DNA from: an uncultured Coriobacteriaceae bacterium
Lineage (GTDB): Bacteria > Actinomycetota > Coriobacteriia > Coriobacteriales > Atopobiaceae
Length of the DNA: 33,962 nucleotides
Reading direction: 5' to 3'
NCBI GenBank assembly: GCA_902797175.1
Contig: CADBRX010000181.1
Location: 1 to 33,962, forward strand
The translations under genes were made by a program, and so were the position numbers. Shown one piece after another: positions 1 to 8,782 of this stretch. The notes below the pieces were generated by a model. The model saw only the letters and a program-made list of their open reading frames with translations. It was not told the origin of the DNA and did not search any database. Position 1 is the first letter of the stretch. Each line of letters opens with the position of its first letter.

Positions 1-84
1 CCCTGCGACGTCATCCCCATGGCCGACTACGGCATGGTCAACGGCAAGAACGTCCTGGCCTTCGCCAAGAAGCTCATCGGCTAG
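1..84 (+). CDS. PTS sugar transporter subunit IIB, lactose/cellobiose family (3' end only)
   Basis: The reading frame is open from the window edge to a TAG at 82-84 and gives the last 27 residues. The piece ADYGMVNGKNVL matches the C-terminal signature of cellobiose/chitobiose-type IIB proteins, which usually reads D-x-DYGxMNGxxVL. IIB carries the phosphocysteine that passes phosphate from IIA to the incoming sugar. The IIA gene follows about 100 bp downstream on the same strand, which supports the call. The catalytic Cys lies upstream of the window and cannot be checked. Confidence 0.75.
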   Translation, partial: PCDVIPMADYGMVNGKNVLAFAKKLIG

Positions 85-189: not shown

Positions 190-519
190 ATGACCGAAGA
201 GCTCGAGCTCACCCTGTTCCAGATCATCACTGCCGCTGGCGGCTCCAAGTCCAGCTACATCGCCGCCATCCAGGAGGCCAAGGCCGGCAACTTTGACGCT
301 GCCAAGCAGCTCATCAAGGACGGCGACGACTTCCAGTCCCAGGCCCACGATCCCCACGCCAAGCTCCTCACCCAGGAGGCTCAGCTTTCCATGGAGGGCA
401 AGAACTCTGCCGATCTCGTCTGCCTGCTCCTCATCCACGCCGAGGACCAGATGATGAGCTGCGAGGTCTTCAAGCAGATGGCCGAGGAGTTCATCGCTGT
501 TTACGAGAAGATCGCCTAA
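190..519 (+). CDS. PTS lactose/cellobiose-specific subunit IIA
   Basis: This 109-aa protein has the length and helical composition of the IIA(Lac/Cel) family. That family forms a trimeric three-helix bundle and is phosphorylated by HPr on a histidine. The motif LLLIHAEDQMM near residues 78-88 is the family signature around the phosphorylated His in helix 3 (usually VHAQDHLM). The start at 190 was chosen because AAGGAG (178-183) sits seven bases upstream; a longer in-frame start at 154 has no such site. With the IIB gene before it, this gene forms the cytoplasmic half of a PTS permease; the IIC gene is not in the window. A strong terminator follows at 547-581. Confidence 0.88.
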   Translation: MTEELELTLFQIITAAGGSKSSYIAAIQEAKAGNFDAAKQLIKDGDDFQSQAHDPHAKLLTQEAQLSMEGKNSADLVCLLLIHAEDQMMSCEVFKQMAEEFIAVYEKIA

Positions 520-649: not shown

Positions 650-2053
650 CTACAACCCCTGCTCGCAGAGCTCGCGGACCACATCGTCCTTGATGGTCAC
701 GCCAGCTGCCTCGAGCTCGGCGATCTTGTCGGCAAACTGCGGCAGGTACTGCTTGTGGGCAATGAGCAGCTCGTCAATCACGCGCTTGGCGTCGGCGCCC
801 GAGGGCGTCTGCGGGTTGAGTGCCACAGCCTCGAGCAGCGCGCCATAGCTGCCCGTGACGGCCGCTTCCTCCACCAGGCGCTGCATGTTCCACATGAGCT
901 GCAGGTATCCACGAGCAGCGGGCTCCATGGGCCCAAAGGCCACCGGCTTGGCGCCGTCTCCGCCCACGTAGCTCGACACCTGGACCACGGCGTCGGCAGG
1001 CAGGTCAGGAATGGCGCCGTTGTTGAGCGTGGAGCACACGATGTGCGTGTTGGTGTTGTTATAGATGGCGGCAATGGATTCGCATGCCACGTCGGAGTAG
1101 TGTGCGCCACCGCGCTTGGAAAGCAGCTCGGGCATCTCGGTGAGGTTCGGGTCCTTGTACAGCTCAAACAGCTGGTCCTCGACCTCCTTGACCTGCTGGG
1201 CACGCGTGCCCTTCTCGGGGTCGGCAAACTCCTTGAGGCCGTCTGCGAGCATGTCGGTCTGCAGGTAGTAGTAGCGGTGGTAGCCGCAGGGGATCATCTT
1301 GAGGTGCTCGAGCTGCTCGCGATAGAACGGGATGTCGTGGATGTTGGCCGGGATGCCGGCGTCCTCGTTGGGGTCGAGCATCTTGTCGATGATCTTCATC
1401 GTGACTTCCTCTCCGGTGGCGCCGTCAAAGACGCGGTGCCAGTGGAAGTGGTCGATGCCCGCAAAGCGATACACGAGGTCGTCCAGGGTCTTGCCGATGA
1501 GCTCGGGCTCGTGCAGCATGGCGCCGATGGGCACGTTGCACAGACCTATGCAGCGGTTCCAGCCGCCGTAGCGGATGACCGACTCGGTGACCATGCCTGA
1601 CGGGTTGGTGAAGCTCACCAGGAAGGCATTGGGGCAGAGCTCCTTCATCTCCTCGACAATCTCGAGGATGACGGGAATGGTGCGCAGGGCCTTGAACATG
1701 CCGCCGGCGCCGTTGGTCTCCTGGCCAAGCATGCCATAGGAGAACGGGATGCGCTCGTCCTTGATGCGCGCCTCGAGCAGGCCCACGCGGAACTGCGTGG
1801 TCACGAAGTCGGCGTCCTTGAGGGCCTCGCGACGGTCAAGGGTGAGGTGCACCTTCACGTCGTGTCCCGAGGCATCCCACATCCGCTGGGCCAGCGCGCC
1901 GACGGTCTCGAGCTTCTCGCGCCCACGCTCCACGTCAACAAGCCAGATCTCCTTGATGGGAAGCCTGTCGTAGCGCTTGATGAAACCATTCATGAGCTCG
2001 GGCGTGTAGCTTGAGCCACCGCCAATGGTGCAGATCTTCAGTCCGTCTTTCAT
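650..2053 (-). CDS. 6-phospho-beta-glucosidase, glycoside hydrolase family 4
   Basis: The 467-aa protein has the usual length for GH4, the NAD- and Mn-dependent hydrolases that cleave phosphorylated disaccharides brought in by PTS permeases. Visible motifs are the dinucleotide-binding loop IGGGSSYTPE (residues 10-19), SFTNPSG (147-153), the metal-binding Cys in GLCNVPIG (Cys172), and GIDHFHW (199-205), whose His202 is the expected second metal ligand. The resemblance is to the 6-phospho-beta-glucosidase branch (LicH/CelF type) rather than the alpha-glucosidase branch. The start at 2053 has AAGGAGG a few bases upstream. It converges on the PTS IIB/IIA genes, so cellobiose-6-phosphate or a related beta-glucoside phosphate is the likely substrate. 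Substrate specificity is inferred. Confidence 0.9.
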   Translation of the reverse strand: MKDGLKICTIGGGSSYTPELMNGFIKRYDRLPIKEIWLVDVERGREKLETVGALAQRMWDASGHDVKVHLTLDRREALKDADFVTTQFRVGLLEARIKDERIPFSYGMLGQETNGAGGMFKALRTIPVILEIVEEMKELCPNAFLVSFTNPSGMVTESVIRYGGWNRCIGLCNVPIGAMLHEPELIGKTLDDLVYRFAGIDHFHWHRVFDGATGEEVTMKIIDKMLDPNEDAGIPANIHDIPFYREQLEHLKMIPCGYHRYYYLQTDMLADGLKEFADPEKGTRAQQVKEVEDQLFELYKDPNLTEMPELLSKRGGAHYSDVACESIAAIYNNTNTHIVCSTLNNGAIPDLPADAVVQVSSYVGGDGAKPVAFGPMEPAARGYLQLMWNMQRLVEEAAVTGSYGALLEAVALNPQTPSGADAKRVIDELLIAHKQYLPQFADKIAELEAAGVTIKDDVVRELCEQGL

Positions 2054-2190: not shown

Positions 2191-3375
2191 ATGTCCGTGC
2201 TTGGCGTCTCCGTATATCCCGATATCCGACCGCTTGACGAGATTGCCGACTATCTGCACCTCGCGGCAAAGCATGGCTTTACCCGCGTCTTTACGAGCAT
2301 GTTTTCTGTCGAGGGAACACCCGAGGAGCTCCTTGCCTACTTCCGCGACCTCGACGCCGTGGCGCATGAGTGTGGCATGGAGATCTCGCTCGACATCAAT
2401 CCCGAATGCATGGAGCGCTTGGGCGCCACCCCCTCTGACCTCTCCGTCTTTGAGGGCATCAAGGCGGACATCCTGCGCATGGACGGCGCCTACGAGGAGG
2501 ACGACAACGTCGTCATGCTCAACAACCCCTACGGCATGAAGATCGAGTACAACGCGAGCGCCCTCACCCCCGAGACCATCGAGGCCCTCGTGGCCCGCGG
2601 GGTCGACAAGGACCGCATCCTTGCCTGCCACAACTTCTATCCGCAGCGCTACACGGGTTTTCGTTGGGACAAGTACCGCGCGGTCAACGAGCGCCTGAAC
2701 AAGCTCGACATCCGCGTGGGGGCCTTTGTGGCGTCGCAGGCACCAAACACGCATGGCGTGTGGGATGCCACCTGCGGCCTGCCCACGGTCGAGCGCACGC
2801 GCGACTATCCCGCAGACCTCGCGGCGCGCGTCGTTGCCGCCGGGGGTGCGACGGACGTCTTCTTTGGCAATGCCTATGCGACCGAGGACGAGCTTGCCGC
2901 GGTTGCCGAGGCGCTGGGCCCCGTGGAGCCCCACTACACGAAGCCCGAGGTGGAGCAGATGTTTGTCAATTCGGTCTTCGTGGATGCCCAACAGGTCATG
3001 AGGCACCAGCGCAAGGTGCGCGTCGAGCCCCTCTACGACATCACGCCCGTCGAGCGCGAGATCCTCTTTGACTTCTTCCCCCACCTTGACATGGGTGACA
3101 GCTCCGAATGGATCTGGCGCACGCGCATGCCGCGCATGTTCTACCAGGGCCAGACTATCGCTCCGCGTCGCTACCCGCTCGACCACTTCCAGGTGGGCGA
3201 CGTGGTCATCGTCAACGACAACTACAAGCACTACGCCGGCGAAGTGCAGGTGGTGCTCGAGCCCATCGTCAACGATGGGACGCGCAACCTCGTGGCGCGC
3301 ATCGACCACGAGGAGATGACCATGTTTGACGTCATCGCCGACAACGACCTTGTGGTGTTCCTTCCCGCACGATAG
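2191..3375 (+). CDS. mupG: MupG-family (DUF871) 6-phospho-muramidase-like protein
   Basis: This 394-aa cytoplasmic protein has the two-part DUF871 architecture: a TIM-barrel N-terminal part (from SVYPDIRP, through LDINPE and the HNFYPQRYTGF motif) and a small C-terminal beta domain of about 110 residues (from about VRVEPLYDI to the end). The characterised member, Staphylococcus aureus MupG, splits MurNAc-6-phosphate-GlcNAc taken up by PTS into MurNAc-6P and GlcNAc. The start at 2191 was chosen for AGAGAAGAGG just upstream and its distance from the -10 at 2147; the upstream in-frame extension overlaps the promoter. A gene encoding a IIB-ROK fusion follows after 7 bp. A role in peptidoglycan-sugar salvage is inferred; other phospho-disaccharides are possible. 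Confidence 0.82.
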   Translation: MSVLGVSVYPDIRPLDEIADYLHLAAKHGFTRVFTSMFSVEGTPEELLAYFRDLDAVAHECGMEISLDINPECMERLGATPSDLSVFEGIKADILRMDGAYEEDDNVVMLNNPYGMKIEYNASALTPETIEALVARGVDKDRILACHNFYPQRYTGFRWDKYRAVNERLNKLDIRVGAFVASQAPNTHGVWDATCGLPTVERTRDYPADLAARVVAAGGATDVFFGNAYATEDELAAVAEALGPVEPHYTKPEVEQMFVNSVFVDAQQVMRHQRKVRVEPLYDITPVEREILFDFFPHLDMGDSSEWIWRTRMPRMFYQGQTIAPRRYPLDHFQVGDVVIVNDNYKHYAGEVQVVLEPIVNDGTRNLVARIDHEEMTMFDVIADNDLVVFLPAR

Positions 3376-3382
3376 GAGTCCC

Positions 3383-4813
3383 ATGTCCATCAACGAGGAA
3401 TATCGCGCTTGGCTGCTCTCTTATGAGCAAAGCGTCTGCACGCTCGAGTCCGTTGACCCTGATCACGTGAGGCTTTTGGGAAAGGGCGCCACGGGCGAAA
3501 TCGCCTTCTACCGCTTTGAGGGGGAGCCCGAGATCGTGGAGATGCGCATCTGGCGCGAAGGATGCGAGGACCAAAACCTCTTCTTCCTCCACTTTGAGCT
3601 TGATGACCTTGGCCGTGCCCAGGACCTCTTTAGGGAGATGCTCGAGGCCTTTGCCCATCAGATGTCGCGCACGGTCACCAAGGTGCTTCTGTGCTGCACC
3701 TCGGGCATGACGACCACGCTCTTTGCCGCACGGATGGGTGAGGCGGCAAAGACGCTTTCGCTCGGCTTTGAGTTTGAGGCGCTTCCGCTCGAGCAGGCCA
3801 TCGCTCACGGTGAGGACTACGTTGCCATCCTGCTGGCGCCACAGGTGGGATACCGCCGTGGCGAGGTTGCGGATGCCTATCCCGACAAGGTCGTGCTCGA
3901 GATCCCCGCCAAGATCTTTGGCTCCTATGACGCTGGCGCCGCCATCAGGCTCCTGCTCTCGGCGCTCGAGACCTATGCGCGCGGCGCCCGCCCCGAGGCT
4001 CCCGAGGTCATCGAGCGCGATCTTTCCAACGACAAGAAGATTCTGGTCATATCGTCGGTTCATCGCGTTAACAGCGCCCGGATTGGCTACCGCGTCTACG
4101 ACCATGGCAAGAAGGTTTTGGATGGGCGTGTGTACAAATACCGCCTTGACATCCGTGACGTTGAGGACGTGGCGGCGGCCGTGCGCATGTCGGGCATCCG
4201 CATGCACGAGCTCGATGCCATCAGCGTGGCGGTTCCGGGCGTCGTCAACGACGGCGTGCTCATCATGGCGGGGGATGGCTCCACCGTGTCATATGACGTC
4301 AAGGGGCGGCTTGAGGAGCGCTACGGCGTGCCGGTCTTTGTGGAGAACAACGCCAACGCGGCTGCCGTGGGCTGCTATGTGGCAGAGGACGACTACGAAA
4401 ACATCGTGCTCCACACGCAGCGTACGGGACACGCCGTCCCCGGGCAGGGCACCATCATACAGGGCCAGCTCGTGCGTGGCCGCAAGGGTGCTGCCGGCGA
4501 GATGCGCTACGCGGGGAGCCGCCTTGCCAGTTGGGAGGACGGCCCCTCAATGTGCTGGTCGCAGGAGGGCATGACGGAGCTTGTGGCGTCCTACCTGCTC
4601 TGCAACATCAGCGTCAGCGCTCCCGAGGCAATCTTTGTCGCGGTGCAGCTCGTGCCCGACATGGAGCTTCTGCGGCAGAAGCTGCTCGAGGCGCTGCCCG
4701 AGGAGTTCGTTCCCGACCTCATCCCTGTGGACAACTACCACGAGCGCATCATGATCGGGGGGCTCGCCCTTGGTCTGCGTGGGCTGAGGGCGTTGGCTGC
4801 CCAGGAGGCCTAG
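3383..4813 (+). CDS. PTS IIB domain fused to a ROK-family domain with degenerate kinase site
   Basis: The 476-aa protein has three parts. Residues 1-98 are an unrecognised alpha/beta region. Residues 99-200 resemble a lactose/cellobiose IIB domain: KVLLCCTSGMTTTLFAARM matches the IIB phosphocysteine loop, placing the active cysteine at Cys105, and LLAPQVGY matches the IIB motif LLGPQIAY. Residues from about 215 on look like a ROK fold (VAVPGVVNDG, VFVENNANAAAVG). The ROK catalytic Asp in E-N-D-A-N is Asn323 here, the DxGGT phosphate loop is not recognisable, and the CxCGxxGC zinc motif is absent. It is therefore probably a sugar or phosphorylation sensor rather than a sugar kinase. No helix-turn-helix was recognised. 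It lies between mupG and a phosphoesterase gene with gaps of 4-7 bp. Confidence 0.75.
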   Translation: MSINEEYRAWLLSYEQSVCTLESVDPDHVRLLGKGATGEIAFYRFEGEPEIVEMRIWREGCEDQNLFFLHFELDDLGRAQDLFREMLEAFAHQMSRTVTKVLLCCTSGMTTTLFAARMGEAAKTLSLGFEFEALPLEQAIAHGEDYVAILLAPQVGYRRGEVADAYPDKVVLEIPAKIFGSYDAGAAIRLLLSALETYARGARPEAPEVIERDLSNDKKILVISSVHRVNSARIGYRVYDHGKKVLDGRVYKYRLDIRDVEDVAAAVRMSGIRMHELDAISVAVPGVVNDGVLIMAGDGSTVSYDVKGRLEERYGVPVFVENNANAAAVGCYVAEDDYENIVLHTQRTGHAVPGQGTIIQGQLVRGRKGAAGEMRYAGSRLASWEDGPSMCWSQEGMTELVASYLLCNISVSAPEAIFVAVQLVPDMELLRQKLLEALPEEFVPDLIPVDNYHERIMIGGLALGLRGLRALAAQEA

Positions 4814-4817
4814 GCGC

Positions 4818-5561
4818 ATGGGTGTCACGACCTATGTCACGGGGGACATTCACGGCAGCTTTGACATCGGCAAGCTGCTGCCCGACCGCTGGCCTGAAGG
4901 ACAGGAGCTAAGGCGTTGCGACTACCTTCTCATCTGCGGCGACTTTGGCCTCGTGTGGAACGAGAACCCGCCCATAGAGGACCGCTACTTTCTGGGATGG
5001 CTGAACGACCAACCCTGGACCACACTCTTCATAGATGGCAACCATGAGAACCATGACCTGCTCGACAGCTTTCCCGTGAGCTCCTGGCATGGTGGCAAGG
5101 TGCATGTGCTCCCGGGCTATCCCAACCTGATTCACCTCATGCGCGGCCAGGTGTTTGACATGGGAAGCGACGGGACGTGGTTCACGATGGGAGGGGCCTG
5201 GACGCGCGATTCGGCCTTTCGGGTCGCGGGCGACGGCTGGTGGCCGCGCGAGCTGCCGAGCGACGAGGAGTACGCGGAGGCGCGTGCCAACCTCGACGCC
5301 GTGGGGTGGAGCGTCGACTACGTGATCACGCACGAGTGCCCGAGGTCGCGGCGTCCCTATGCCATGTATGACTGGTACTGCGAGGAGTTTGACCCGGCAG
5401 ACGGCCTCTCCCTCTTCTTGGACGAGGTCGACGAGCGGATCGACCACACGCGGCTCAAGCGCTGGTATTCAGGCCACTATCACGCCGACATCACGCTGGG
5501 CGACGAGCAGCACGCCATGCTCTACCGCCAGATAATCCCTCTCGGCGAGCTTCCGCGATAG
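4818..5561 (+). CDS. Calcineurin-like metallophosphoesterase
   Basis: The 247-aa protein has the full set of metallophosphoesterase motifs in order: TGDIHG (residues 8-13), CGDFG, GNHE, THECP and GHYHAD near the C-terminus. These provide the two-metal site of the family. There is no signal peptide or membrane segment, so it is cytoplasmic. Its ATG is 4 bp after the stop of the IIB-ROK gene, and the ribosome site GGAGG (4805-4809) lies inside that gene's end, so the two are probably translationally coupled. The substrate is unknown; proteins of this size group act on phosphoproteins, nucleotides or phosphosugars. Confidence 0.85.
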   Translation: MGVTTYVTGDIHGSFDIGKLLPDRWPEGQELRRCDYLLICGDFGLVWNENPPIEDRYFLGWLNDQPWTTLFIDGNHENHDLLDSFPVSSWHGGKVHVLPGYPNLIHLMRGQVFDMGSDGTWFTMGGAWTRDSAFRVAGDGWWPRELPSDEEYAEARANLDAVGWSVDYVITHECPRSRRPYAMYDWYCEEFDPADGLSLFLDEVDERIDHTRLKRWYSGHYHADITLGDEQHAMLYRQIIPLGELPR

Positions 5562-5609: not shown

Positions 5610-6950
5610 CTACAGCGTGAACTCGGCAAACTGGCTGCCCGCCTCGGGCTCCTCGGGGTCGCCGGGCAGCGGTGCGTGGCTGAGGGCATCTGACCCCAAA
5701 AGCTCGGCTACGCTCAGCTGCGGGTTCTGGCAGAGGATGTCCAGCATCTCTATGAAGTCGCGGATGACCTCGCGCGGCGTGAGGTGCGTCTCCGACCCCA
5801 CGCGTCCGTACTCGAGCTGCAGGAACGTGACCAGGTCCTGCTCGCCCAGCGTGCGCGTATAGCCAAAGTAGCCCGCATGGATGTCGGCGAGCTTCTCAAC
5901 CAGCACCAGCAGCTCCTCGTAGGTGAGCGGCTCCAGGCGGATGACGGGAGCCAGCATGTCCAGGAGTCCCTCCTGCGCAAAGCGGCCCTGCGTCAGGCGC
6001 GAGCGCAGCGCCTCGTAGCTGTAGAGACCGCGCCGACGGTCCTCGATGGACTGCGGCGTGCCGCTCATGATGATGCCCAGGTGGTGCGCACGGCCCTGCA
6101 GCGTGTCGTTGTACATGGTCAAGATCTTCTCGTAGTTGTACTGGCGCGAGATGGCGTTGGGGATCTTGTACAGGTTGACCAGCTCGTCCACGAGCACGAC
6201 CAGGCCCTCGTATCCCGCCTGCACCAAGAACTCCGCAAAGAGCTTGAGGTAGTCATACCAGTCGTCATCGCCAATGACGATGTTGACGCCCAGCTCCTCA
6301 CGCGCCTCGCTCTTGGTGCGATATTCCCCGCGGAACCACTTGGTGACGTTTGCCTTGGTCTCGTCGTCACCCTCCAGGTGCGAGCGCCAATACATGGTGA
6401 GCAGGCGCGCAAAGTCGTAGCCATGCACCAGCTCCTGCAGCTGCGAGATGGTGCCCATGATGCGCGCCTCTACCTCGCGGGCAAATGCGGGGTCGTCCTG
6501 GGGAAGTCCGGTCGCCAACGCTACGTCCTGCTGCACGCCGCTGATCCAGCGGTCAAGGATGAGCGTGAGCGCACCTCCGTCTGGGCGGGTCTTGGTGGAG
6601 AGGTTGCGGATGAGCTCGCGATACGTGGCAAGGCCCTGGCCCTTGCCGCCCTGCAGCCTGCGTTCGGGGGAGAGGTCGGCGTCGCACACCACAAAGTTGC
6701 GGCCCATGGCGTGGTTGCGGATGGTCTGCAGAAGGAAGCTCTTGCCACTGCCGTACCGTCCGACCAAGAAGCGGAAGGAAGCCCCTCCATCAGCAACAAG
6801 GTCAAGGTCGTGGAGAAGGGCGCGGATCTCGGCCTCGCGTCCCACCGTCACATAGGGGAGCCCCACGCGGGGCACGACGCCGCCCTTGAGCGAGTTGATG
6901 ATGACCGCCGCGATGCGTTTGGGTACCTTGACCTGCTGTTCGTCCGTCAT
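5610..6950 (-). CDS. DUF2791-type P-loop ATPase (BREX-system ATP-binding domain family)
   Basis: This 446-aa protein has Walker A GRYGSGKS (residues 64-71), Walker B LVVLVDE (Asp255, Glu256) and a downstream MSGTPQSIEDRR region with an arginine-rich sensor-like segment. This matches the DUF2791/BrxD-type ATPase family, an AAA/STAND-related group found in BREX and related defence or stress loci. Its ATG overlaps the stop of the TerB gene as ATGA, so translation is coupled. In other bacteria this ATPase commonly sits with a TerB_N/TerB_C gene and a large DEAD/DEAH helicase; no helicase is present on either side here. The C-terminal tail is acidic. The ATPase call is strong; the biological role is inferred. 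Confidence 0.82.
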   Translation of the reverse strand: MTDEQQVKVPKRIAAVIINSLKGGVVPRVGLPYVTVGREAEIRALLHDLDLVADGGASFRFLVGRYGSGKSFLLQTIRNHAMGRNFVVCDADLSPERRLQGGKGQGLATYRELIRNLSTKTRPDGGALTLILDRWISGVQQDVALATGLPQDDPAFAREVEARIMGTISQLQELVHGYDFARLLTMYWRSHLEGDDETKANVTKWFRGEYRTKSEAREELGVNIVIGDDDWYDYLKLFAEFLVQAGYEGLVVLVDELVNLYKIPNAISRQYNYEKILTMYNDTLQGRAHHLGIIMSGTPQSIEDRRRGLYSYEALRSRLTQGRFAQEGLLDMLAPVIRLEPLTYEELLVLVEKLADIHAGYFGYTRTLGEQDLVTFLQLEYGRVGSETHLTPREVIRDFIEMLDILCQNPQLSVAELLGSDALSHAPLPGDPEEPEAGSQFAEFTL

Positions 6951-8782
6951 GCGCCCAGAATCTCCCTTACATCCTCAAGATAGTCCTCGACAAGGACCGG
7001 ATCGTCTCCCTCATACTCTATGACGGCGTCGCCCACCACGTCAAAGAGCTTCTCGTTAATGCTATCAATCACCAGCGACAACATCTGCCCCTCCGGGTTC
7101 GTGGGAGTTGCTGCCCCCGTGATCAGTGCATGTAACACGACCCGCTCAGCTGTCGTCAGCGCGAAAGCGGACTCAGGGAGCGCGTCGGGAGACTCCTCTC
7201 GCTGATCCCTTTCCGAGCGCACGCTTTCTGCGCGAGGAGGGTCGAGAGGGGAGTCTCCCGACGCGCTCCCTGAGTCCTCCCTCTCTTGTTCGGTGGGCAG
7301 TGCCTCCCGCTCCTCGTCGGTGAGCAGCGCCTCCTGCGTCACGGCGGCGGCCGCGCGTATGCCGGCTAGCTGCGAAAAGTCGATGGTGATGCGGCGTCTC
7401 TCGGCCTCGGCCTGCGCGGCCAGCAGCTCGTCGATGGCCTTGTCGATGATCTTCTCGACATAGGCGGCCACGGGTCGGTCCTTGAGGGGATAGGCATAGT
7501 TCAGGCGCGCACGAAGCCGCGCGTCCACGGCGTGCATGATGGTGCCCAGCTCGGAGCTGCGGCCGCTCGCGCTGCAGAGGAGGTGCTGCCGCCACCTGCC
7601 GTTGCGGCAGGTGAAGGTCTCTGTGGGGGTCAGGTGCACCACGCAGTCCGCATGGGGTTCGCTCTCATAGAAGACGGCCGAGGAGAACATGGTGTACACG
7701 TCCGCGGTGGGGCTGCCGTAGAGCCCCTCCACAAAGTCCGTCTTGCGGCGGCGAGAGCAGTGCGTTACGAGCGCGCGGAACGTCTCGCATGCCACGGTGC
7801 GCAGCTCGTCGGGGTGGTCCTTGAAGAGGCGGGCCCCGCATGGCTGATAGCTCGAGCATTCGTTGAGCGCGGTGAGAAGCGCCTCGTCAGTGGGGGTGTT
7901 ATGCGCCGGAAGGGCTCCCTGCTTTCGCTCGAGGCCGCCCTTTCTCAAGGCGTCCTCCTCCGCCTGGAGCAGCGTGAGCACCTGCTCCTGCTGGCCCCCG
8001 GAGCGCTCTGTCAGAAGCGCGGGATCAAGGTTGTGGTAGACCACGTAGTCGCGGATCCAGCGGCGCAGATATGACCCAAACGTGGATCCTGCGGCCGCGT
8101 CGGTCTTGCCAAAGGCATCCCTAAACGTCATGAGGTCGGCCAGGCCCTGCTCTCCAGGCACCGTGCCTACGCCGCAGAGCAGCTCGTATACGTGCAGGAA
8201 GGCAAACGAGAGCGGCGCCTCGGGCATCTCGCCTGCGCGCACGCGCGTCCGCCACGAAAAATAGCCGCGTAGCTGGGTGAGCGTCATCGAGCTATAGGTG
8301 GGAAAGTACTGTGAGTACGTGCCGTGAAACTCGAAGTCGTCCTCGAAGTCCTCCATGAGGCGTGCCTGCTCGTAGAAGAGGCGGTTTGCGGAGCGCGTGC
8401 CATAGGCCAGCGCGCCGCGCCAGGACGAGGCCGCCGCGTTTGGCTGCGCTCCGGCAAGCTCGCGCAGCCGGTAGTAGCGTTCGGGGATGTTTTCGTGGGC
8501 GAGCTGCTGCTCGCGGGCCACGGAGGGCATCCGGTCAAACGACATCTGCTGCTGTCGCGGCACCGGCTCTCGGGGAAAGGTGCGCTCGTCGGGCGTGTAG
8601 TCGGTCCGCGGGAGGCTGCTGAGCGGGGGACGGCCTTCACGATTTCTGTCCATCCGCTCGCGCAGCTGCTTGCCTGTCTGGATGATGGGCTGGTCAGAAT
8701 AGGTCCGCGAGGTGAAGGTGGCACTTTCGCGCAGGCGTCGGTCCCCCAGGAGCTCTTGCAAGATCTTGTCGATGTCCGGCAT
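6947..8782 (-). CDS. TerB N-terminal and C-terminal domain protein
   Basis: The 611-aa protein begins with a charged, Pro/Arg-rich disordered segment (residues 1-95). A TerB_N-like domain follows (about 100-300); its core MTLTQLRGYFSWRTRVRAGE plus FAFLHVYELLCGVG matches the family pattern of a helical Y/F-x-WR-x-R-x-GE repeat. A helical middle region is next, then a low-complexity Ser/Glu/Asp/Arg linker (about 490-540), then a TerB_C-like domain (about 540-611, from FALTTAERVVL). There is no signal peptide. These domains occur in predicted stress and phage-response systems around tellurite-resistance modules. The start at 8782 has GGGGAGG upstream. The linker DNA (7169-7277) is a near-perfect inverted repeat (see repeats). 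The ATPase gene follows with an ATGA overlap, and the promoter contains a LexA-like box. Confidence 0.75.
   Translation of the reverse strand: MPDIDKILQELLGDRRLRESATFTSRTYSDQPIIQTGKQLRERMDRNREGRPPLSSLPRTDYTPDERTFPREPVPRQQQMSFDRMPSVAREQQLAHENIPERYYRLRELAGAQPNAAASSWRGALAYGTRSANRLFYEQARLMEDFEDDFEFHGTYSQYFPTYSSMTLTQLRGYFSWRTRVRAGEMPEAPLSFAFLHVYELLCGVGTVPGEQGLADLMTFRDAFGKTDAAAGSTFGSYLRRWIRDYVVYHNLDPALLTERSGGQQEQVLTLLQAEEDALRKGGLERKQGALPAHNTPTDEALLTALNECSSYQPCGARLFKDHPDELRTVACETFRALVTHCSRRRKTDFVEGLYGSPTADVYTMFSSAVFYESEPHADCVVHLTPTETFTCRNGRWRQHLLCSASGRSSELGTIMHAVDARLRARLNYAYPLKDRPVAAYVEKIIDKAIDELLAAQAEAERRRITIDFSQLAGIRAAAAVTQEALLTDEEREALPTEQEREDSGSASGDSPLDPPRAESVRSERDQREESPDALPESAFALTTAERVVLHALITGAATPTNPEGQMLSLVIDSINEKLFDVVGDAVIEYEGDDPVLVEDYLEDVREILGA
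7169..7277. repeat. Perfect 28-bp inverted repeat inside the TerB gene
   Basis: Bases 7169-7196 are exactly the reverse complement of 7250-7277, with a 53-bp spacer; a further 5 bp nearly match after a 2-bp slip. The arms encode residues 503-511 and about 529-538 in different frames, in the linker just before the TerB_C domain. If the spacer were inverted, the reading frame after the first arm would be TCT CGC TGA, truncating the protein at residue 513. Confidence 0.9.

Follow-up and report, generated by a model that had tools for sequence, protein, structure and literature searches.

A family of PTS IIB-ROK fusion proteins in Atopobiaceae and a candidate link to a metallophosphatase

The 33,962-nucleotide stretch of DNA analysed here (the window) encodes a protein of 476 residues in which a PTS IIB domain of the Lac/Cel type is joined, in a single chain, to a ROK domain that has lost its ATP-binding and catalytic motifs. 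We tentatively propose, rating the idea a little short of even, that this IIB-ROK protein is a cytosolic subunit that senses the state of the PTS and controls how active a partner enzyme is, in this case a phosphatase acting on phosphosugars. The sequence-only reading that drew attention to the gene had described the fusion itself; it misses the main clue to the output, namely the adjacent gene for a metallophosphatase (MPE), which is fused to IIB-ROK in 20 relatives. The features of the locus are as follows.

1 to 84, forward strand: ordinary stand-alone PTS IIB, C-terminal end, cut by the contig end (recognised by eye; C-terminus as in the complete IIB at 7027-7482 of locus L075)
190 to 519, forward strand: PTS IIA (Lac/Cel), Pfam PTS_IIA 86.2 bits
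547 to 574, forward strand: terminator-like hairpin after the IIA gene (3 such sites in the region versus 3.1 in shuffled sequences)
650 to 2053, reverse strand: GH4 glycosidase, divergent, Pfam Glyco_hydro_4 and 4C
2191 to 3375, forward strand: MupG/GH170-type 6-phospho-glycosidase, first gene of the run, Pfam MupG_N 213.9 bits and MupG_C 79.2 bits
3383 to 4813, forward strand: IIB-ROK protein, 476 aa, open reading frame with Pfam PTS_IIB and ROK
3383 to 3676, forward strand: N-terminal domain, residues 1-98, alpha-beta5-alpha, unrecognised family
3677 to 3973, forward strand: PTS IIB domain (Lac/Cel type), residues 99-197, from Pfam, fold match and dN/dS
3695 to 3697, forward strand: Cys105 codon, predicted phosphorylation site
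3974 to 4030, forward strand: linker, residues 198-216 (pLDDT below 50 at residues 197-204)
4031 to 4810, forward strand: pseudo-ROK domain, residues 217-476, from Pfam, structure comparison and motif counts
4349 to 4351, forward strand: Asn323 codon, replacing the ROK catalytic Asp
4818 to 5561, forward strand: calcineurin-type MPE, 247 aa, with metal motifs; homologue fused to IIB-ROK in relatives

Architecture and distribution of the IIB-ROK family

The gene is a single open reading frame that runs from an ATG at 3383, closely preceded by AGGAG, to a stop codon at 4811-4813. In the window protein, Pfam places PTS_IIB (PF02302) at residues 100-164 (25.4 bits against a cut-off of 23.6) and ROK (PF00480) at residues 262-374 (58.4 bits against 22.9), whereas every NCBIfam model stays below its cut-off. 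The AlphaFold model, built from 53 family members, has a pLDDT of 87 and a pTM of 0.84, and shows three folded parts covering residues 3-95, 98-197 and 217-475. When the model is compared with known structures, the best counterpart cited for IIB is IIBchb (2wy2, 100 aligned; Z 17.1, rmsd 1.5), and the ROK part superposes on NanK (2aa4; Z 20.2, rmsd 2.8, 233 aligned). Cys105 aligns with the active-site Cys of IIB-chitobiose/cellobiose. The Pfam and fold matches thus agree on the IIB plus pseudo-ROK architecture first read from the sequence. The motif check likewise bears out the claimed loss of the catalytic Asp, the phosphate loop and the zinc motif from the window ROK domain, which reads ENNAN with Asn323 at the catalytic position and contains neither a DxGGT-type loop nor CxCGxxGC.

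The sequence-only reading had also proposed a role without DNA binding, which the absence of an HTH supports, and had noted that the 98 initial residues match nothing recognised, which holds. A Pfam scan with E up to 1 detects neither PRD nor HTH in the window protein, no Pfam HTH occurs across the 53 family members, and an N-terminal HTH of the kind found in NagC/Mlc is absent from the N-domain model, an alpha-beta5-alpha fold with a pLDDT of 90.7. For residues 1-98, no meaningful Pfam match was obtained from 53 members (best E 0.018), the best E against PDB sequences was 0.24, and Foldseek returned nothing below E 0.16 with the model. Comparison with T3S-chaperone/YbjN-like folds reached Z 8.7 at best (7ui9_q) and 7.6 for DR_1245 (4h5b), which we take to be YbjN-like. 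DR_1245, CapZ, the T3S chaperones and KhtT were considered as names; since most of their VIA-align Z values of 5-9 are ones that the program itself labels 'common', the domain is left unnamed.

The family is present in all 18 genomes of the genus. The genome from which the window comes has seven full-length IIB-ROK places, of which five are distinct, because one 51-kb contig (C87) looks like its own mirror image, so that the copies on it are counted twice: the 4395 bases of one locus (L004) recur there as a reverse complement (L048), probably an assembly artefact. In all, 60 genomes were searched and 36 gave some match; besides those of the genus, G018 and G035, from two other genera, carry the family, and the remaining genera yielded separate IIB or ROK matches only, except that G029 has a short match to the N-domain. 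Sampled evenly across the class, the family turns up in 13 of 296 genomes, which represent 3 of 124 genera, all with family code f1. Among the best 80 loci in named genomes, 61 are family-like, mostly from Atopobiaceae/Coriobacteriaceae MAGs, and the other 19 (L139-L157) are Streptomyces ROK-only matches left out of the family count; scattered Firmicutes members, at 28-35% identity, come from Selenomonas, a Veillonellaceae, Solobacterium, an Erysipelotrichaceae and a Clostridiales MAG. One scan of viral contigs gave no relatives, and among the plasmid matches listed (5 of 103 records) the similarity lies at the GH4 gene only.

Conservation of the IIB and ROK residues

The residue counts below refer to 93 distinct members, of which 92 entered the tree (L128 was too short), and alignment A1 holds 53 of the first 54; no open reading frame was obtained for L134. 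Cys105 is Cys in 90 members and His in one (L135), and column 105 is missing from two: L136, a fragment, and L129 (738-1050; G013 contig C14), in which an unrelated initial stretch of 100 aa is joined to IIB-ROK from about residue 172, probably a chimeric contig join. The phosphorylatable-type Cys, expected to be invariant in orthologues, is thus conserved in 90 of the 91 members with a residue at this position; in the single exception (L135, 5938-7404), the IIB domain looks degenerate. The IIB residues Pro153 (92/92) and Gln154 (91/92) are kept as well.

The ROK part gives a different picture at one position. The expectation that residue 323 would never be Asp fails: it is Asn in 66 members, Asp in 23 and Ser in 3, and is missing from one. 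No family member has an intact ROK active site, though, since DxGGT, GTG and CxCGxxGC are each absent from all 92 members that reach 300 aa or more; the orthologue with an intact site that would speak against a pseudokinase was sought and not found. Among ordinary ROK proteins of the same genome, DIGGT occurs in 5 of 6, the Asp of ENDAN in all 4 recovered of the 6 (L165 and L166 were not recovered), and the zinc motif in 1 of 6. Since ordinary ROK proteins keep DIGGT and the Asp, the loss of DxGGT and of the Asp in the family is meaningful, and since only one of the six has the zinc motif, its absence is weak evidence. Several other ROK residues, which we take from ROK structures to belong to the sugar pocket, are largely retained, namely Pro285 (91/92), Gly286 (91/92), Asn322 (87/92) and Glu373 (80/91).

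These data bear on whether the protein might still be an ATP-dependent kinase with unusual motifs, as the ROK fold (Z 20 to NanK) and the Asp in 23 of 92 members could suggest. We consider this very unlikely, given that DxGGT or GTG occurs in 0 of 92 members against DIGGT in 5 of 6 ordinary ROK proteins encoded by the same genome.

Comparison of the window gene with its nearest orthologue gave a dN/dS of 0.105 overall, with 0.135 for the N-terminal domain, 0.117 for the ROK domain and 0.039 for the IIB domain, the most strongly constrained of the three. Purifying selection acts on all three domains, so the dead ROK domain is being maintained. A functionless, decaying or chance fusion is therefore contradicted by the conservation data, and we find it scarcely credible: the family is in 18 of 18 genus genomes and dN/dS is at most 0.135 in every domain, although some copies do carry an in-frame stop and one remnant is known from a different genus of the same family. 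This decayed copy (L047, 4325-4645) consists of roughly the first 56 residues of the N-terminal domain and lies beside an apparent GH1 fragment.

The metallophosphatase and other gene neighbours

The MPE gene starts 4 bases 3' of the IIB-ROK gene; MupG, IIB-ROK and MPE are closely spaced, and their order is the same in the window and in L075. The metal motifs DxH, GD, GNHE, H and GHxH are invariant in 22 of 22 MPE homologues, 16 of which match Pfam Metallophos (PF00149; best 4e-8), and the window copy itself gives no Pfam match. In 20 distinct family members an MPE of 260 aa is fused in frame to the N-terminal side of IIB-ROK, with 56-60% identity to the free MPE of the window. A close MupG (at least 69% identity) was found in 14 of the 18 genus genomes, and in 13 of these 14 the same gene run contains MPE: fused to IIB-ROK in eight (G002, G003, G005, G009, G012, G015, G016 and G017), free after the IIB-ROK gene in two (the window and G001), and free directly after MupG, with no IIB-ROK between, in three (G006, G008 and G011). 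In G013, MupG sits on another contig.

The fusion in close relatives suggests a hitherto undescribed switch by which sugar uptake would be coupled to the activity of a phosphatase. For the sensor proposal we count the retention of Cys105 in 90 of 91 members, the strongest constraint falling on IIB, the in-frame MPE fusion and the MupG-MPE linkage in 13 of 14 genomes. Counted against it are the three genomes in which MPE has no local IIB-ROK, the many paralogues (the majority) that are not beside MPE, the loss of the Cys in L135, and free MPE homologues (30-53% identity) in genera that lack the IIB-ROK family. Because MPE directly follows MupG in those three genomes, the phosphatase needs no local IIB-ROK; the same three carry a fused MPE-IIB-ROK elsewhere in the genome.

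The window copy and the fused copies fall into different clades of the tree, and a tree that unites them is worse by 25.5 log units (AU p 0.043), so that two origins of the MPE linkage are suggested at borderline strength. Fused copies that adjoin MupG have Asn or Ser at position 323 (8 of 8), and those that do not adjoin it have Asp in 8 of 9, the ninth (G007, Asn) starting near a contig end; this split may represent one event. In G013, a phosphatase-fused and an unfused IIB-ROK stand in tandem (L087, 3500-7437).

A neighbour is known for 88 members. Next to them and in the same direction lie, among others, a Cof-type HAD phosphatase (9), MupG and an HPS-like enzyme (7 each), GH1 (4), free MPE (3) and phosphotrehalase-like GH13 (2); these counts describe related sequences and not independent events. 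In 41 of the 88, IIB-ROK is accompanied by a phosphosugar enzyme or by a phosphatase, either adjacent or fused, with no such gene in the other 47, and 31 of 88, many of one clade, are linked to MPE or a Cof-type HAD phosphatase. Cof-HAD was considered as a general partner and set aside as suggestive only, being the immediate co-directional neighbour in 9 of 88 with 3 changes on the tree, and PF08282 occupying 22 places in the genome (20 with the mirrored contig counted once). At eight loci (L026, L027, L040, L049, L050, L051, L054 and L063) the IIB-ROK paralogue comes after genes for an HPS/KGPDC-like enzyme and a LacY-like MFS protein, in a conserved cluster that has no visible PTS genes.

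This variety of neighbours, which takes in GH1, phosphotrehalase-like GH13, HPS-like plus MFS and HAD genes, could also come from a PTS-linked regulator that controls transcription or transport through protein-protein contact, with the phosphatase link as a side branch of one lineage. Such a protein might titrate a transcription factor or gate a transporter, by analogy with dephosphorylated EIICB-Glc, which holds the repressor Mlc; this contact between an EIIB and a ROK protein is a precedent (structure 3bp8 and the available part of PMC3901232). We judge the contact regulator rather unlikely, since the twelve genes most often found adjacent and co-directional in 88 contexts include no transcription-factor gene, several clusters in this set being unannotated, and since the recurrent partner in the window lineage is an enzyme.

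A further possibility, which we regard as improbable, is a soluble PTS sugar phosphotransferase, whose ROK pocket would hold a free cytosolic sugar and whose IIB Cys~P would donate the phosphate instead of ATP. The neighbouring MupG, GH1 6-phospho-beta-glucosidase and phosphotrehalase-like GH13 belong to families that release a free sugar, most members retain Asn322 and Glu373 despite the loss of the ATP loop, and 23 of 92 members have Asp at 323. Against this, 69 of 92 members have Asn or Ser as the catalytic base, among them the window gene and each of the 8 fused copies beside MupG, and other ROK proteins that do carry DIGGT are encoded in the genome. Extended to the MPE, the idea becomes a membrane-free PTS switch, in which IIB would carry the PEP-derived phosphate, the ATP-blind ROK domain would pass it to the sugar it holds and MPE would reverse the reaction; we see this as a long shot. 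If it were true, PTS charge would directly set the kinase/phosphatase balance on cytosolic sugars, within one polypeptide in the fused relatives. The phosphotransferase reading is bolder and less likely than that of a sensor of PTS charge.

Proposed function and relation to known PTS regulation

The sensor that we favour calls for a working PTS, and EI, HPr and IIA-lac are all present in the genome, at two distinct places, so that its PTS is complete in these components. The ordinary IIB that ends at position 84 has a complete orthologue in L075, so the transporter has an IIB besides the fused one; no IIC gene was seen near this contig end, which starts inside the ordinary IIB. The adjacent IIA gene precedes the terminator-like hairpin and may therefore belong to another transcript. 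Past MPE, the reverse strand of the window (5610-8782) carries genes for a P-loop ATPase (446 aa) and a 611-aa protein, possibly a defence-type pair; both recur beside MPE in L129 and L180 and the ATPase alone in L177, the ATPase at 93-94% identity.

By homology, a Lac/Cel-type IIA~P would charge Cys105 of IIB when the transported sugar is scarce, and high PTS flux would leave Cys105 discharged. The ROK fold, having lost the use of ATP, may serve as a docking or sugar-binding module, and the combined state of IIB and ROK would set the activity of the partner enzyme with no DNA binding. At the window locus the candidate partner is the MPE encoded downstream, whose counterpart in sister lineages forms the N-terminal portion of the fused chain. 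Its probable role would be to let PTS flux decide whether phosphosugars from the MupG/GH4 pathway are dephosphorylated, a scheme in which the phosphorylation, the ligand, the phosphatase substrate and the direction of control are what we infer.

It is instructive to set this protein beside known systems. It shares the fold (Z about 20) and part of the sugar pocket with the ROK sugar kinases NanK and GlcK, and unlike them has no DxGGT, catalytic Asp or zinc motif. Mlc, a non-kinase ROK protein, keeps the zinc motif. As in the Mlc/EIIB-Glc complex of E. coli (3bp8), a ROK fold and a PTS IIB would take part in one regulatory event, whereas here they occupy one chain, the IIB has the Lac/Cel fold and there is no HTH. 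MtlR, a PTS-controlled regulator, has an EIIB-like domain with a conserved Cys (as far as the available part of PMC8560693 describes it), and the window protein resembles it as a non-transport protein with a conserved EIIB Cys; unlike MtlR-type proteins, with their EIIB and EIIA domains, it has no PRD or HTH, its partner domain is a pseudo-ROK and its output is apparently enzymatic. In Lacticaseibacillus, a GH170 enzyme occurs together with a cellobiose PTS, and the GH170/cellobiose-type operons (MupG, ChbE) resemble the window in combining a MupG-family enzyme with Lac/Cel PTS genes, their accessory gene being DUF3284 (ChbD) where the window has IIB-ROK and MPE (available part of PMC12791066). 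A literature search on combinations of ROK, IIB, pseudokinase and metallophosphoesterase found no IIB-ROK fusion in the portions of the sources available, and a search on inducer expulsion gave nothing useful.

Taken together, EIIB sensors of the PTS on DNA-binding regulators, and the ROK/IIB contact between separate proteins in Mlc, were already known. What is new is a large family that joins IIB and an ATP-dead ROK domain in one chain with no recognisable DNA-binding domain, and to which a phosphatase was added in one lineage; the IIB-ROK family is a new form of EIIB-based PTS regulation. If the sensor proposal is true, there would be a direct post-translational link from PTS charge to phosphosugar metabolism. 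The family makes testable the idea that the sugar pockets of pseudokinases act as metabolic sensors, and the proposal gives a first candidate function to a recurrent, unannotated gene of rumen Atopobiaceae.
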